DNA of 64,000 nucleotides from the NCBI GenBank assembly GCA_002720855.1, contig PBIN01000015.1, positions 62,001 through 126,000 on the forward strand. Reading direction: 5' to 3'. The notes under the pieces were generated by a model, which was given only the letters and a program-made list of their open reading frames with translations, ran no database searches and had not been told where the DNA came from. The translations under genes and the position numbers were made by a program. The stretch is from Rhodospirillaceae bacterium. GTDB lineage: Bacteria; Pseudomonadota; Alphaproteobacteria; MPNO01; UBA2964. Positions 45,962 through 55,867 of the stretch are shown here, one piece after another. The first letter of the stretch is position 1; each line of letters begins with the position of its first letter.

Positions 45962-48244
45962 CTACGACTTGTTAAAAATTTCTTTTAAACGCTGTGGCGT
46001 TACCGGCAATTGCGTAATTGCCCCGGGAATCCCAATTGCCTGATCTATAGCTCCTGCGATGGCCGCGCCGACGCCATTGATACCGCCCTCGCCGCCGCCC
46101 TTTAGTCCGAGCAAGTTATGCGGGCTCGGCGCATCTTCCGTAATTAAGCATTCAACCGTCGGTGCGCGATCCAGCGTTGGCATCAAATAATCGGCAAAGG
46201 TAACAGCCATTGGTTCGCCCTCTTCGCTATAGACGAACTCCTCATAGAGAGCGCCGCCAATTCCCTGCACACAGCCACCGACCAATTGTCCTTCGAGCAG
46301 CATTTCATTGACCATGCAACCGACGTCATAGGCCACCATAAAACGCTCGACGTCAATCCGACCTGTTTCGGGATCCACTTTGACGACTGCGAAATGTATC
46401 CCGTATGGAAAGGCTGATTCGCTCGTCTTGTGAAAATCCTCAGCATTGAGGCCGCCTTCGGTACGCCGGGAAATTTCCGCGAGCGAAATCGACGGGCCAG
46501 CGGGATTGTCTGCGACAACTACCGTACCATCGACAATTTCAAGCTTGTCGGCGGGCATTTGCAGCATTTCGGATGCAAGTTCAAGAGCCTTCTTTCGCAA
46601 AGTCAGCGCTGTCACATTCACGGCACTGCCCGTCATTACGGTTGCACGGGCTGCGTGGGCACCAATTCCGTAGGGAATGAGATTGGTCTGGCCGTGAATT
46701 ACCGTGATGCGGTTATAGTCTGCGCCCAATGCATGCGCACAAATTTGTCCCATGGTGGTCTCGAACCCCTGTCCGAGCGATGCTCCACCGGTGAGAACCT
46801 CAACATCACCATTCTCATCGACTGAAATCCGGGCGCCATCAGACGGGCCCTTACCACTTTCCTCTACGAAGATACCGATGCCCGACCCAACCATCTCGCC
46901 GTTTGCCCGGCGTTTCTCGAGATCGCTTTCAAGTTCGTCCCATTTCAGCCACTCGAGCGCCTTTTCGAGCAAAGCCGGATAATCTCCGGTATCGATTTCG
47001 AGATCTTCGACCCCCGCTTCATCAAACTTGATCGAAAACGGCATGTCGTTCGCCGTAATTAAATTGCGGCGTCTAATATCGATGCGATCAATTCCGAGCT
47101 TGACCGATAACGCATCCATCAACCTTTCACGTACGAATGTGCTTTCGAACCGGCCCGGCGCCCTGTAGGTCGCAGCGGGTGTTTTATTGGTCAGGCGCAA
47201 ATGGCATAGCGCACGATACGCCGGCACCTTATAAGCGCCCGTCAACATACACATCGTTCGGTTGGGGACATTCGCACCGTGTGTGCGAATATAACCGCCC
47301 TGATCGTGGAAGAATTCATCTTCCATGCCCAGGATCATTCCGTCACTATCGACAGCGATCTTCACCATATGGCGCTGATTGCGGCCCTGATTGGCGGCCA
47401 TCATGTGTTCCTGGCGGTCCTCTATCCACTTCACGGTCCGGCCTAGGCGCATTGATGCAACGAGTACCAATACATCTTCGGGATAAAGCTCGCCGCGTAT
47501 CCCAAACCCGCCACCGGTATGACCTTCATGAAGCTCTATCTTGTCCTCGTCCCGCTCTAACATGCGGACAAGCGTATCGCGATTTCGATGCGGAACCTTG
47601 GCGGCACCATAAAGTTTCAAAATGTCGTTTTCGGAATCGTAGACACCGATCGCGCCACGCGTTTCCATCGGCACACCGGAATGACGCCCCGTCCTTAGGT
47701 CGAGCTCAATAACCGTGTGCGCTGCTGCAAATGCCGCGTCAACATCCCCATAGGTGTGTGTGAGAAGACCAGCTTCCGAGCTTAACCCATCGTCAAACTC
47801 GCCTGGCACTTCGTCTGCCGATGAAATTACCCGCAACGGTTCGGCATCGATCATTACAAGTTCGGCGGCATCTTCAGCAATATATGCGTCTTCAGCAAAG
47901 ATCGCGACGACGGGATCACCGACATAGCGAACGCGGTCTGTCGCCAATACATTCTGACGAAACGGCTTAAGTTCCTCAGACGATTTATCGGCTCGAAAAT
48001 CGATCGGCGGCAGATCGGATATATCGTCGCTCGTCCAGATCGCTACAACGCCGGGTACCGCAGACGCCTCTGCAGTATCAATTGAATTTATCTTGGCATG
48101 CGCGTACGGACTGCGGACAATCCGCATATGCAGCTGATTGGGAAAATTTATGTCGGCTGCATATCGCCCTCGCCCACTAATCAGAGGTGGATCCTCAAGC
48201 CTTTGAAGCCGTTGACCGAGCAGGGCTTTTTTCTGCGTTGCCAT
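45962..48244 (-). CDS. molybdopterin-binding large subunit, CoxL family (orphan, paralogue of 37351-39669)
   Basis: The protein has 760 residues. Marks are RLEDPPLISGRGRYAADINF, EGHTGGGFGIRGELYPEDVL, TYRAPGRFESTFVRERLMDA and active-site Glu in GLKGGGEGGINGVGAAIAG. It is very like the large subunit at 37351-39669 along its length, including the LHMRIVRSPYAHAKI block. It lacks adjacent FAD and 2Fe-2S genes, so partners must be shared. It opens a minus-strand run with the decarboxylase-like gene and the second M-S-L set; a dienelactone-hydrolase-like gene starts on the other strand 135 bases away. Confidence 0.92.
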   Translation of the reverse strand: MATQKKALLGQRLQRLEDPPLISGRGRYAADINFPNQLHMRIVRSPYAHAKINSIDTAEASAVPGVVAIWTSDDISDLPPIDFRADKSSEELKPFRQNVLATDRVRYVGDPVVAIFAEDAYIAEDAAELVMIDAEPLRVISSADEVPGEFDDGLSSEAGLLTHTYGDVDAAFAAAHTVIELDLRTGRHSGVPMETRGAIGVYDSENDILKLYGAAKVPHRNRDTLVRMLERDEDKIELHEGHTGGGFGIRGELYPEDVLVLVASMRLGRTVKWIEDRQEHMMAANQGRNQRHMVKIAVDSDGMILGMEDEFFHDQGGYIRTHGANVPNRTMCMLTGAYKVPAYRALCHLRLTNKTPAATYRAPGRFESTFVRERLMDALSVKLGIDRIDIRRRNLITANDMPFSIKFDEAGVEDLEIDTGDYPALLEKALEWLKWDELESDLEKRRANGEMVGSGIGIFVEESGKGPSDGARISVDENGDVEVLTGGASLGQGFETTMGQICAHALGADYNRITVIHGQTNLIPYGIGAHAARATVMTGSAVNVTALTLRKKALELASEMLQMPADKLEIVDGTVVVADNPAGPSISLAEISRRTEGGLNAEDFHKTSESAFPYGIHFAVVKVDPETGRIDVERFMVAYDVGCMVNEMLLEGQLVGGCVQGIGGALYEEFVYSEEGEPMAVTFADYLMPTLDRAPTVECLITEDAPSPHNLLGLKGGGEGGINGVGAAIAGAIDQAIGIPGAITQLPVTPQRLKEIFNKS

Positions 48245-51068: not shown

Positions 51069-51557
51069 TTACTTCTGCGCTGCTTCCGCTTTCCGTCGTT
51101 CGAAAAGCTGCACCAGCTTAATGACATCCGCAGCATCCATTCTGCCAAGAGGCCCGGCGCTATAGCTGGATGCGACGACTTTCCCATCGTCGCCCAGCAG
51201 AATTTCAGTGGGCTGGATAATGCTCCGCTGATCTTCCCACCAGGACCCAAGCTGATCTGCCTGGTCCTTGGTAACGCCTTGGCCAACGGGGAACGAAACA
51301 TCGTCAGCCACCTGTTGTGCCTCATCGCCCGTATCAACGCTGGCAGCAATTACCTTTATGCCTTCAGCTTCGAGCGTGGATTTTTCATTTTCAAAACCGA
51401 CCAACTGCCGGCGGCAGTATGGTCACCAGTGACCTCGATAGAAGAGGATCAACTGGTACTTAGCATCTGCCAGATCTGGCAGTGTTGCCGTGCCGCCGCC
51501 GACCAGATTAAGGGTCATCGCGGGGAAGGCATCACCGAGATTTAACTTTTCTGCCAT
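51069..51557 (-). CDS. redoxin-family selenoprotein with U-x-x-C active site
   Basis: Read from ATG 51557 through an in-frame TGA at 51423-51425 to TAA at 51069, the protein has 162 residues with selenocysteine at position 45. The site reads LFYRGHWUPYCRRQLVGFEN, exactly the peroxiredoxin/AhpC-TSA position where relatives have Cys. Without the Sec reading a gene from GTG or ATG after it would lose the first third of the thioredoxin fold. A perfect hairpin directly after the UGA is a bacterial-type SECIS. It would reduce peroxides or thiols. It faces a deiodinase-like selenoprotein gene and lies near selA, selB and selC. Confidence 0.93.
51401..51422 (-). promoter_or_regulatory. SECIS-like hairpin of the redoxin selenoprotein
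   Basis: Immediately after the UGA, the mRNA has CCA-U-ACUGCC-GCC-GGCAGU-UGG: six perfect pairs, then three more after a single-base bulge. Bacterial SECIS elements lie just downstream of the UGA and bind SelB. The hairpin lies within the coding sequence for the PYCRRQL residues. Confidence 0.8.
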
Positions 51558-51604
51558 GATTTCCTACTCCAGTTACAAACATCTTCATTGTCACCGGGCC
51601 AATC

Positions 51605-51641
51605 ACAATTGCAAGAGCGACAATTGCTGAAAGAGACAATT
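51605..51641. repeat. three ACAATT direct repeats between the two selenoprotein genes
   Basis: ACAATTGC at 51605 and 51620 and ACAATT at 51636 are spaced 15 and 16 bases in the 128-base divergent region between the two selenoprotein genes. Regular spacing may mark a regulator site or a promoter; the word is short and could recur by chance. Confidence 0.35.
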
Positions 51642-51685
51642 CGGCCTATTCTCAAATGAGAGGAAAATTACTGGGAGGAAAATCA

Positions 51686-52360
51686 ATGGATCCCCGTTTT
51701 GAGCAGTTCAAGGACTTGGACTGGAACACAATGAGCTTTCCAGAAAAGCGCGACGTCTGGCTACAGATTTCGGATATGAGCGCTGAAGAGTTCGACGCAA
51801 TGATGGCGGCGCAGAAGGCCCGGCAAGACCAGGTACCCAAGGTCGGCGACATGGCGCCAGATTTTGAATTGGAGCGACTCGACCGGACAAAAAAACGCAC
51901 CGGCGAGTATGTAAAACTCTCGGATTTAAGAGGAAAGTCGGTAGCGCTCTGTTTCGGCTCTTACACATGACCGCCATTTCGTGATCAGTCCGTGCGACTG
52001 AACGAAATTTACGAAGCAAACAAAGACAATATCGAGTTCTTCCTGATCTATGTATGTGAAGCACACCCTTCTGACGGCTGGCAAACGCTGCAAAATCTCG
52101 AAACCGAGATTTTCTTTAAGACACCGACGACTCCGGACGAACGTGCTGAGATTGGCAATGCCTGTCAGATCGGGCTTGATCTCAAATATCCCATGCTCAT
52201 CGACAATATGGATGATGAGGTGGAGAACAAATATGTCGCCGCCCCCATCCGGCTGTTTGTCATCGATCCTGACGGCAAGATTACCTACGCTGGCAAAGAG
52301 GGCCCTCATCTGTTTGATCCCGATGGCTGGGAAGAAGCCATTAAGGAGCAAACCGCCTAA
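51686..52360 (+). CDS. iodothyronine deiodinase-like selenoprotein
   Basis: Read from ATG 51686 (GGGAGGAA five bases upstream) through TGA 51968-51970 to TAA 52360, the protein has 224 residues with selenocysteine at 95. The thioredoxin-fold motif ALCFGSYTUPPFRDQ and, 30 residues later, FLIYVCEAHPSDGWQ match vertebrate deiodinases (FGSCTUPPF and EAHPSDGW). PDFELERLD begins the fold. No signal peptide or membrane anchor is present, unlike the animal enzymes, so it is cytoplasmic. It could reduce organic halides, thiols or peroxides; activity is unknown. A SECIS-like hairpin follows the UGA, and selA starts 34 bases after its stop. Confidence 0.94.
51978..52006 (+). promoter_or_regulatory. SECIS-like hairpin of the deiodinase-like gene
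   Basis: Seven bases after the UGA the mRNA forms UUCGU (51978-51982) with ACGAA (52002-52006), an internal loop, AGUC (51987-51990) with GACU (51996-51999), and a five-base loop CGUGC. The loop lies about 22 bases from the UGA, within the distance seen for bacterial SECIS elements. Confidence 0.65.
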
Positions 52361-52393
52361 AGCTTTCCATAATCTATGCCGGTGGGGTTTGGT

Positions 52394-53818
52394 ATGACCG
52401 ACACCACCGGCATTCTTCTCTCTTCCATACCCTCGGTCGATAAACTTCTCCGCACAGCTGAAGCGGAAACTCTTATTGATGCATTTGGCCGCCAGCCGGT
52501 AACCGACGCTGTGCGCAGTGACCTCGCACACCTTCGGCAATCTATTGCAAAGAATAGCGGCGTTACTGAGAAACAGATTTCGGGTGACAGCATCCTTGCA
52601 CGTGTTACAGCCACGCTGGAATCCAACATTACCCCCTCACTGAGACCCGTATTCAACCTCACGGGCACAGTCCTGCACACCAACCTCGGACGGGCACCAC
52701 TACCAGAAGAGGCCGTTGAAGCGATCGCCGCCGTATCACGCGGTGCCAGCAATCTCGAATATAATCTGGAGACCGGGCGGCGCGGCGACCGTGACGTTCA
52801 CCTGGAGGAAAAATTTGCCCAACTTATCGGTGCGGAGGCGGTCACCATCGTTAACAACAACGCTGCTGCCGTGCTTCTAATCCTCAATGCTTTGGCGCTC
52901 CGCAAAGAGGTCATTGTTTCGCGGGGCGAGCTAATCGAGATTGGCGGTGCCTTTCGCATTCCCGATATCATGTCCCGTGCTGGTGCCAAGCTTCGCGAAG
53001 TCGGTACTACAAACAGAACCCACGCCAGGGATTTTGAAGAAGCGATCAGTTCCAGGACTGCTTTGTTGATGAAAGTCCACACCAGCAACTATGAGGTTCA
53101 AGGATTTACAGCTGCGGTATCGGAAACTGAGTTGGCCGAAATCGCCCACAAAAACGATCTGCCCTTCGTGATCGATCTCGGCAGTGGGACCATGACTGAT
53201 TTAGAGCAGTTCGGATTACCCCACGAACCGACCGCGCAGGAAGCCCTCGCCGCCGGTGCGGATTTGGTAAGCTTTAGCGGCGATAAACTTCTCGGCGGAC
53301 CCCAGGCGGGGATCATAGCCGGACGCGCTGACCTCATCGCGAAAATCAAAAAGAATCCGATGAAGCGCGCTATGCGCTGCGACAAGATGACGATCGCAGC
53401 GCTTGAAACCATCCTTCGGCTTTACGCCGATCCTGACAGGCTTGCCGAGCGCATACCAGCCCTGCGCTTGCTGGCTCGAAAGCGGTACAGCATCAAAGAA
53501 ACAGCGAAGCGAATTGAAACCGTATTGGCAGCCGCTCTGGGCGAAAAATTCGAAGTGCTACAACAAGACTGCCAAAGCCAGATCGGTAGCGGCTCTCTTC
53601 CAACCGAGCGCCTCGACAGTATCGCGCTGGTTGTTCGTCCAACCGCTGCGAAAGGTATCGGAACCGCGTTAAAGCGGCTCGCCACAGCTTTCCGTCGATT
53701 GCCTGTCCCTGTAATCGGACGGATACAGGATGATGCACTTTGGTTGGATTTACGGTGCCTTGAATCCGAAATTGAAGATGCTTTTTCCGGCCAGTTAAAA
53801 AACCTCGCCATAAAATGA
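52394..53818 (+). CDS. selA: L-seryl-tRNA(Sec) selenium transferase SelA
   Basis: The protein has 474 residues from ATG 52394 (GGTGGGG upstream); ATG 52376 would add six residues. SelA turns Ser-tRNA(Sec) into selenocysteyl-tRNA with selenophosphate. Visible: VDKLLRTAEAETLIDAFGRQ at the N-terminus that binds tRNA, NLTGTVLHTNLGRAPLPEEA, SNLEYNLETGRRGDRD and VTIVNNNAAAVLLILNALA, and the PLP lysine in FSGDKLLGGPQAG (Lys298). It overlaps selB by four bases (ATGA). The island also contains two Sec-protein genes and selC. Confidence 0.96.
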   Translation: MTDTTGILLSSIPSVDKLLRTAEAETLIDAFGRQPVTDAVRSDLAHLRQSIAKNSGVTEKQISGDSILARVTATLESNITPSLRPVFNLTGTVLHTNLGRAPLPEEAVEAIAAVSRGASNLEYNLETGRRGDRDVHLEEKFAQLIGAEAVTIVNNNAAAVLLILNALALRKEVIVSRGELIEIGGAFRIPDIMSRAGAKLREVGTTNRTHARDFEEAISSRTALLMKVHTSNYEVQGFTAAVSETELAEIAHKNDLPFVIDLGSGTMTDLEQFGLPHEPTAQEALAAGADLVSFSGDKLLGGPQAGIIAGRADLIAKIKKNPMKRAMRCDKMTIAALETILRLYADPDRLAERIPALRLLARKRYSIKETAKRIETVLAAALGEKFEVLQQDCQSQIGSGSLPTERLDSIALVVRPTAAKGIGTALKRLATAFRRLPVPVIGRIQDDALWLDLRCLESEIEDAFSGQLKNLAIK

Positions 53819-55728
53819 TAATCGCGACCTCAGGCCATATTGATCACGGTAAATCCGTTTTGGTTAAGGCGTTAACCGGCGTCGACACCGATAGGCTGCC
53901 GGAAGAAAAAGCGCGCGGAATCTCTATTGATCTCGGCTATGCCTATCACAGGCTGGATCAGGACAATGTTCTCGGGTTTGTAGACGTTCCGGGTCATGAA
54001 AAGTTTGTCCGCAACATGCTTGCCGGGGTTACGGGCATTGACTACGCACTGTTGGTTATTGCTGCCGATGACGGCCCAATGCCCCAAACCGAAGAACATC
54101 TCGCGATCCTTGATTTGTTAGGAATTTCCGCCGGGGCCGTCGCCATTACCAAAACCGACCGCGTCGATACCGACAGGGTTTTGGAGGTCATTGAACTCAC
54201 AGAATTGCTTCTCGATGGCACAACTCTTGAAGGTGCTTCCATTTTTCCGGTATCCGGCATTACTGGCGATGGCGTCTCTGAACTACAAGCCCATTTGGAC
54301 ACCGCCGCTGCGGCGTTCGACAACACTCAACGCGATGGTAATTTCCGCCTCGCTATCGACCGCCGTTTTACGGTGCCGGGGGCAGGGCTGGTCGTAACGG
54401 GCAGTGTTTTTTCGGGCACGGTTGCCGTTGGTGATCAACTCGTTCTGTCTCCAACTGGCCATCAGGCACGTGTACGGGGTATCCATGCGCAGAATCAGGA
54501 CGCCGAAACCGGCCGCGTCGGTCAACGTTGCGCGCTAAATATTGTTGGCTCCGATCTCGGTAAAGAAGATGTCCATCGAGGCAATTGGGTATTGTCTGAA
54601 GCCGCGCATGCACCAACACGACGCTTTGACGCGCGCATCCGTTTGCTTAGATCCGAACCGCGGTCTTTAAAACACTGGACACCCGTTCACCTCCATATTG
54701 GTGCCGCCGACATTAGCGCGCGGGTTGCTTTGCTTGACGGCAAAACGATAGCTCCAGGCGATTCAGCGATCGTGCAGTTGGTACTCGATGAACCCATTGG
54801 TGCTTTGCATGGCGACCGGCTGATTCTGCGTGACCAATCGGCCCGTCGCACAATGGCAGGAGGCAACGTAATCGATTCGTTCGCTCCGGCACGCGGACGA
54901 TCAAAGCCTGAGCGCCAGGCCGCGGTTGCCGCCATGGACACCGACAACCCCATTGAAGCGCTTTCGAATTTGCTCGAAGTCCAGGTCAATGGTGTCGATC
55001 TCAGGCAGTTTGCAATCAGCCGAAATCTGACAACCGGTCAAGCGGCAGCGCTTTGGCCGCAGCTTGATATGGAAGTGATTTCGAATAGCCATAGTGATAT
55101 CGGGATCTCACGTTCGCGATGGAATTCGCTCACAGACGACATTATAAAGTCGCTCGCGGAATGGCACACGGAGAGACCCGATCAGCCCGGGCCTGCGGAA
55201 AACACATTGCGCCTGTCTTTCGACCCACGACCGACGATCCCCGTTTTTAGTGCTGCTGTCGGGAGTCTGGCAGCAAAGAACAAGGTTATAATCGCCAATA
55301 GGCAACTCCGCCTGCCAAGCCATCAGCCCGGCATGAACCTTCAGGACAAAAAGCTCTGGTCTGATGTTCGTCAAACCATGGAGGAAGCGGAGTTGCGTCC
55401 CCTTTCACTCCACGATGTTGCCGAGGACATGGGAATTAAGGCAACGGCTCTCACGGCGTTTATGCGTCGGGCTGCCTCCACCGGATTTGTCATTCAAGTT
55501 TCCAAAAGCCGTTTCCTTCTGCCTGACGCGGTCCAGGAACTCGCGGCTATCGCCGAGGCCCTAGCGGCTGAAGGTGAAATTACCGCCGCGGAATTCCGCA
55601 ATCGCTCAGGTATTGGACGCAATATGGCAATTGAGATTTTGGAATTTTTTGATAAGGCCGGGCTGACCAAACGTAATGGCAATTCGCGCGAAATCATCAA
55701 ACCGGCGGCGGAAATATTCGGTGGTTAG
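53815..55728 (+). CDS. selB: selenocysteine-specific elongation factor SelB
   Basis: The protein has 637 residues, slightly longer than in E. coli. The GTPase domain shows GHIDHGKSVLVKALTG, VDVPGHEKFVRNMLAGVTG and AITKTDR; EF-Tu-like beta domains follow; the C-terminal part has four winged-helix modules that bind the SECIS hairpin (for example ELAAIAEALAAEGEITAAEF and IEILEFFDKAGLTKRNG). It brings Sec-tRNA(Sec) to UGA at the ribosome. It overlaps selA and is followed 43 bases on by selC. Confidence 0.96.
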   Translation: MIIATSGHIDHGKSVLVKALTGVDTDRLPEEKARGISIDLGYAYHRLDQDNVLGFVDVPGHEKFVRNMLAGVTGIDYALLVIAADDGPMPQTEEHLAILDLLGISAGAVAITKTDRVDTDRVLEVIELTELLLDGTTLEGASIFPVSGITGDGVSELQAHLDTAAAAFDNTQRDGNFRLAIDRRFTVPGAGLVVTGSVFSGTVAVGDQLVLSPTGHQARVRGIHAQNQDAETGRVGQRCALNIVGSDLGKEDVHRGNWVLSEAAHAPTRRFDARIRLLRSEPRSLKHWTPVHLHIGAADISARVALLDGKTIAPGDSAIVQLVLDEPIGALHGDRLILRDQSARRTMAGGNVIDSFAPARGRSKPERQAAVAAMDTDNPIEALSNLLEVQVNGVDLRQFAISRNLTTGQAAALWPQLDMEVISNSHSDIGISRSRWNSLTDDIIKSLAEWHTERPDQPGPAENTLRLSFDPRPTIPVFSAAVGSLAAKNKVIIANRQLRLPSHQPGMNLQDKKLWSDVRQTMEEAELRPLSLHDVAEDMGIKATALTAFMRRAASTGFVIQVSKSRFLLPDAVQELAAIAEALAAEGEITAAEFRNRSGIGRNMAIEILEFFDKAGLTKRNGNSREIIKPAAEIFGG

Positions 55729-55771
55729 GATTTACCGACGGCGCAGATGACATATTATTAGGAGACATCGC

Positions 55772-55867
55772 GGAAGGGATTCGTGAGCCGGTGCTGCGCT
55801 CGGGCTTCAAACCCGGTGAGGGGCGTTAAACGTGCCTGGTGGGTTCAACTCCCACTCTCTTCCGCCA
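55772..55867 (+). tRNA. selC: tRNA-Sec, anticodon TCA
   Basis: The 96-base gene begins GGAAGGGA and ends TCTCTTCCGCCA. The acceptor stem has eight pairs (one G-U), the length typical of bacterial tRNA-Sec, with discriminator G73 and encoded CCA. The anticodon loop CTTCAAA carries TCA at 55807-55809. The extra arm is long (from about 55815 to 55843) and the T-arm reads GGTTCAACTCC. Its ends match the E. coli selC ends (GGAAG and CTTCCGCCA). A run of nine T follows directly. Confidence 0.97.

Follow-up and report, generated by a model that had tools for sequence, protein, structure and literature searches.

The occurrence of selABC with a neighbouring fdhA is a known pattern in Alphaproteobacteria (PMC1794560). 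Clusters of selA, selB and selC with fdhA have been described from Alpha-, Beta- and Gammaproteobacteria (PMC1794560), and the arrangement fdoGHI-selABCD is documented in PMC8124441. A comparative study concluded that, in the Sec-decoding Alphaproteobacteria then sequenced, the product of the fdhA gene beside selABC was the only selenoprotein, and that every selenoproteome contained FdhA or a Sec-form SelD, which largely maintained the Sec trait (PMC1794560). The Sargasso Sea survey (PMC1088965) and reviews (PMC13188914, PMC9312934) have described deiodinase-like selenoproteins and Prx-like UxxC selenoproteins. The former belong to PF00837 and combine a Sec form and a bacterial SECIS with a thioredoxin fold (PMC1088965), and the latter carry U-x-x-C in a PF00578 domain (PMC1088965, PMC13188914). 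The bacterial SECIS is defined as a hairpin located a short distance past the UGA, whose small apical loop contains G (PMC1088965).

The locus analysed here occupies positions 51069-55867 (about 4.8 kb) of the window, by which we mean the whole 64,000-nucleotide stretch under study (C15:62001-126000 of the genome), and holds selA, selB, selC and two genes with an in-frame UGA. It shares with the fdhA clusters a selABC operon with a client beside it, but the clients are deiodinase-like and Prx-like UxxC proteins rather than a Sec-containing formate dehydrogenase (Sec-FDH), a selenoprotein gene stands first in the sel operon, selC lies after selB instead of being nested, and selD is remote and encodes a Cys form. 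The Prx-like protein resembles known UxxC members, except that in several families of the order and class its gene adjoins selABC or lies close to it. The deiodinase-like protein differs from reported PF00837 selenoproteins in its motif, which is U-P-P-F with no Cys at +3, whereas reviews list UxxC. All of the protein families are known; what varies is the presence of deiodinase-like and Prx clients in place of formate dehydrogenase and a selenoprotein gene leading the sel operon. A search of mainly freely available literature gave no account of a sel operon with a deiodinase-like gene at its head.

We consider it very probable, judging from the sequence, that the locus is a chromosomal, vertically inherited Sec-decoding operon (deiodinase-like gene, selA, selB, selC) accompanied by a divergent gene for a Prx-like UxxC selenoprotein. 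The genes, their conserved order, the conserved UGAs and the covarying hairpins can be read directly from the DNA. In the mechanism that we propose, an NDH-SelD protein encoded 69 kb away would provide selenophosphate, SelA would convert Ser-tRNA(Sec) to Sec-tRNA(Sec), and SelB would deliver the latter to UGA codons with a downstream SECIS hairpin. Translation would then yield both full-length enzymes, whose thioredoxin or peroxiredoxin fold would carry Sec at its catalytic position.

Organization of the sel locus

The deiodinase-like gene, selA, selB and selC follow one another on the forward strand, and the Prx-like gene is divergent on the reverse strand. The gene for SelA, the L-seryl-tRNA(Sec) selenium transferase (52394..53818, +), scored 603 bits with TIGR00474 against a cut-off of 268. 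Its likely start at 52394, 33 nt past the preceding stop, is kept across the genus; a longer ORF begins at 52376. The Sec-specific elongation factor gene selB (53815..55728, +; TIGR00475, 456 bits, cut-off 242) overlaps selA by 4 nt. After a further 43 nt comes selC (55772..55867, +), a tRNA-Sec gene with anticodon UCA and an encoded CCA that was recovered by both ARAGORN and Rfam RF01852 (67.6 bits, E 1.2e-11) and is followed by a T10 tract. The preliminary description had placed genes for SelA, SelB and tRNA-Sec, beside two selenoprotein genes, within 51069-55867, and these searches bear out both the identities and the position. Close to the sel locus, at 45962-48244 of the window, there is also a gene for a large molybdopterin hydroxylase of the aldehyde oxidase/xanthine dehydrogenase family.

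Two predicted selenoproteins and their SECIS hairpins

The deiodinase-like gene (51686..52360, +) encodes a predicted selenoprotein of 224 aa that scores 81 bits with PF00837 (T4_deiodinase), above the gathering score. Its UGA at 51968-51970 (+), in the context FGSYT-UGA-PPFRDQ, would place Sec95 in GSYT-U-PPF, and the protein also carries an EAHPSDGW motif. It matches the solved structures of Dio3 and Dio2, with which it has in common the catalytic Sec, the preceding Thr and EAHPSDGW. The predicted model (pLDDT 89) lies nearest to mouse Dio2 (TM 0.68 by query), followed by ResA-type thioredoxins and Dio3. Matches were found in 19 of 97 related genomes; every close homologue has the UGA, and distant homologues have Cys at the site (GSLTCPMF and GNYTCPVY). 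In five of nine genus members (L009, L010 and others) UGA also terminates the deiodinase-like gene itself, about 33 nt ahead of selA, and the codon thus means both Sec and stop within one gene.

The divergent gene (51069..51557, -) encodes a Prx-like thiol:disulfide oxidoreductase of 162 aa, a predicted selenoprotein of the AhpC/TSA family (PF00578, 69 bits) that falls below every NCBIfam cut-off. Its UGA at 51425-51423 (-), within FYRGHW-UGA-PYCRRQL, would give Sec45 in RGHW-U-PYC, which is the U-x-x-C arrangement of Prx-like UxxC selenoproteins in an AhpC/TSA domain. The AlphaFold model (pLDDT 89) has a peroxiredoxin fold, with a TM of about 0.8 to peroxiredoxins. The UGA recurs in all 25 homologues above 50% identity and, in a class-wide sample (n=190), in all six other genomes with a close homologue; distant homologues have Cys (YRGKHCPIC). 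At both sites Sec in close homologues gives way to Cys in distant ones, and Sec/Cys exchange is thus seen; we found no homologues of the kind that would have spoken against the preliminary description, with neither residue at the site. One homologue (L075, about 1620-1626, in G015) reads RGH-UGA-UGA-PFC, so that two UGAs stand in tandem in place of the Trp-UGA of all the others; the additional UGA may encode a second Sec or be a sequencing error, or the copy may be broken.

Each UGA had been reported to have a hairpin just downstream, and both hairpins show compensatory changes. The predicted SECIS of the deiodinase-like gene (51986..52000, +) has a 5-bp stem beginning 15 nt past the UGA and a CGUGC loop. 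Among 27 distinct sequences 99.3% of the base-pair cells are standard, with 26 compensatory changes; the outer pair varies among CG, GC and AU, and the fourth among GC, GU, UA and AU. Its covariation score of 0.509 was reached by none of 500 shuffles, and slid registers were only 25-49% paired. The predicted SECIS of the Prx gene (51396..51412, -) has a 6-bp stem beginning 10 nt past the UGA and an AGUUG loop, with 99.1% of base-pair cells standard and four compensatory changes among 19 sequences; its score exceeds all 500 shuffles, and slid registers fail. Both hairpins have the five-base, G-containing apical loop shortly after the UGA that is expected of a bacterial SECIS. The two covariance models that we built mostly capture coding sequence and were hence left out of genome scans. 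Taken with known biochemistry, these features argue for Sec insertion at both UGAs.

Selenophosphate supply and the wider selenoproteome

As had been anticipated, selD is not in the window and lies elsewhere in the genome: the only SelD over the cut-off is encoded at C15:186762-187679, 69 kb from selC. It makes up the C-terminal portion of a protein of about 780 aa, an NDH-SelD fusion with the same form as known fusions of TIGR03169 with TIGR00476, and its active site is in the Cys form (CGGCGAKV). All the components of the bacterial Sec-decoding trait (SelA, SelB, selC and SelD) were therefore found in this genome, alongside in-frame UGA genes conserved across species. A family search of the genome found no tRNA selenouridine synthase, so selenouridine is not the reason for retaining selD. 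At 1.7 kb from the NDH-SelD gene, and like it outside the window, is a gene for the selenosugar synthase SenB (388 bits, cut-off 300; G000:C15 about 184003-184959, or L051 8003-8959); SenA was not found in the 18 kb around it.

Searching the genome for other UGA genes yielded at least two further selenoproteins, as the preliminary description had led us to look for: contig 3 has another deiodinase-like gene with a UGA, and contig 14 encodes a PrxQ/BCP-like protein that reads TPG-UGA-T. The genome thus has at least four selenoproteins, a minimum from a search made family by family, and the sel locus therefore serves a wider selenoproteome. The SelW family was not found in the genome, and the formate dehydrogenase search gave only sub-threshold matches, without in-frame stops. 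Given that no Sec-FDH was found and that SelD is in the Cys form, it is apparently redox enzymes from the deiodinase-like and Prx families that maintain the Sec trait in this marine genome. Such clusters are good targets for determining the function of bacterial deiodinase-like proteins and their relation to the Prx encoded next to them.

The divergent spacer and operon structure

The Prx and deiodinase-like genes are separated by a spacer (51558..51685) that we presume to be the promoter region. It contains the motif CAATTG-N9-CAATTG (51606-51626) and the dyad TCTCA-NN-TGAGA (51650-51661), each found once in the window. Both are largely kept among eight genomes and are missing from the most divergent one. 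They are possible regulator sites; the genome has three CAATTG-N9-CAATTG sites and the control one, a difference that does not prove a regulon. A sigma-70 scan of the spacer gave no clear promoter, the sigma-70 and terminator scans performing no better than on shuffled sequence, so it is spacing and conservation that argue for an operon in which the deiodinase-like gene, selA, selB and selC are probably co-transcribed.

It is conceivable, though unlikely, that the leading selenoprotein gene serves to sense selenium for the very machinery that decodes its UGA. With selenium scarce, the UGA would be read as a stop, the rest of the cistron would go untranslated and transcription of selA-selB-selC would fall; with selenium available, SelB would read through and the machinery would be made, in a positive feedback.

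Weighing the alternatives

A reading in which one UGA or both act as genuine stops, in pseudogenes, split genes or assembly errors, would agree with standard ORF calling, which does split both genes at the UGA, as the preliminary description had expected of annotation pipelines. But the UGA keeps its position across independent assemblies and many species, the frames are intact downstream, the hairpins covary and the full Sec machinery is present, which leaves this reading with a negligible probability. A variant of our main reading would make the deiodinase-like protein a true dehalogenase of iodinated or brominated aromatics, and its place in PF00837, the mouse Dio2 and Dio3 structures among its nearest solved folds and the retained Sec-PPF and EAHPSDGW motifs all speak in its favour. 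Against this, alignment with Dio3 puts Pro and Glu at the positions of His219 and Arg275 (numbers counted off the chain alignment), and all 18 bacterial homologues compared have Pro in that column. The corresponding Dio residues serve as proton relay and substrate clamp, respectively (PMC11592359), and a thyroid-hormone deiodinase would be expected to have them. We therefore regard the dehalogenase variant as rather improbable, and a thiol/peroxide redox role as more likely than hormone deiodination for the deiodinase-like protein; known biochemistry points to such a role for the Prx-like protein as well.

The preliminary description had also taken the locus for a compact selenocysteine island that might be mobile or self-sufficient. 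The compact pairing of two selenoprotein genes with selA, selB and selC stands; mobility and self-sufficiency are not supported. An island carrying machinery and clients together between genomes would be compact, as this one is at about 4.8 kb; the same components also occur together in different orders in L255, L114, L093 and L043, and the Sec-containing Prx is sporadic in the class. However, the order deiodinase-like-selA-selB-selC, whose conservation in relatives had been proposed as a check, is kept in all nine genus genomes, with 32-33 nt from the preceding stop to selA and 42-60 nt from selB to selC. The Prx gene is divergent at 120-128 nt in all eight genus genomes in which the contig reaches far enough. 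The position is the same in every checkable genus member, and the flanking genes (DLH, acyl-CoA dehydrogenase, CMD, PhoU-like, phosphate transporter, EamA and TauD) largely recur where contigs cover them. The GC content is native (53.7% for the locus, 52.1% for the window), almost all genomes of the order yielded selB, selD lies outside the locus, and the other selenoproteins, scattered in the genome, rely on this machinery too. SelA and SelB trees largely agree with rpoB trees built from tblastn-derived sequences, recovering the same families for f2g5, f3 and the window's genus. The one exception is f1g4 (two genomes, L185 and L186), whose SelB groups with family f3 at full support although rpoB places f1g4 in f1; the machinery may have been transferred within the order, or long branches may have affected the tree, and inheritance is accordingly not purely vertical everywhere in the order. 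Variable location and foreign composition were not seen, and the locus does not include all of the machinery. A mobile, self-sufficient island is thus largely refuted at genus level and very improbable overall; mobility finds no support at the level of genus or order, and there may have been an occasional older transfer. Vertical inheritance of a chromosomal Sec-decoding operon remains our preferred reading.

As a separate observation, in L040 and L041 SelA and SelB are 65-66% identical, and the deiodinase-like protein of these genomes 83-84%, so that the machinery diverges faster than its client.

Related loci in other lineages

In a contig scan of 80 deiodinase-like loci, sel machinery was beside the deiodinase-like gene only in the window's genus, which the scan placed among uncultured, mostly marine Alphaproteobacteria, and in L093 and L114. 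The Prx gene adjoins or is near selABC in f1g2, f1g4, f3, f4 and f11. Deiodinase-like gene, Prx gene and sel machinery occur together in G025 (L043), Rhodospirillales Ww571 (L114) and G138 (L255). The order in L114 is selB-selC-Prx-deiodinase-like, and L255 shares with L114 a gene order that permutes the one in the window. In L255 (2508-13387, G138:C7), from an alphaproteobacterium of another family, a complete Sec island including selD lies together with selenoneine biosynthesis genes within about 11 kb, which encodes NDH-SelD, SenB (TIGR04348), SenA (NF041186), a malonyl-CoA synthase-like protein, Sec-containing deiodinase-like and Prx proteins, selC, selB and selA.
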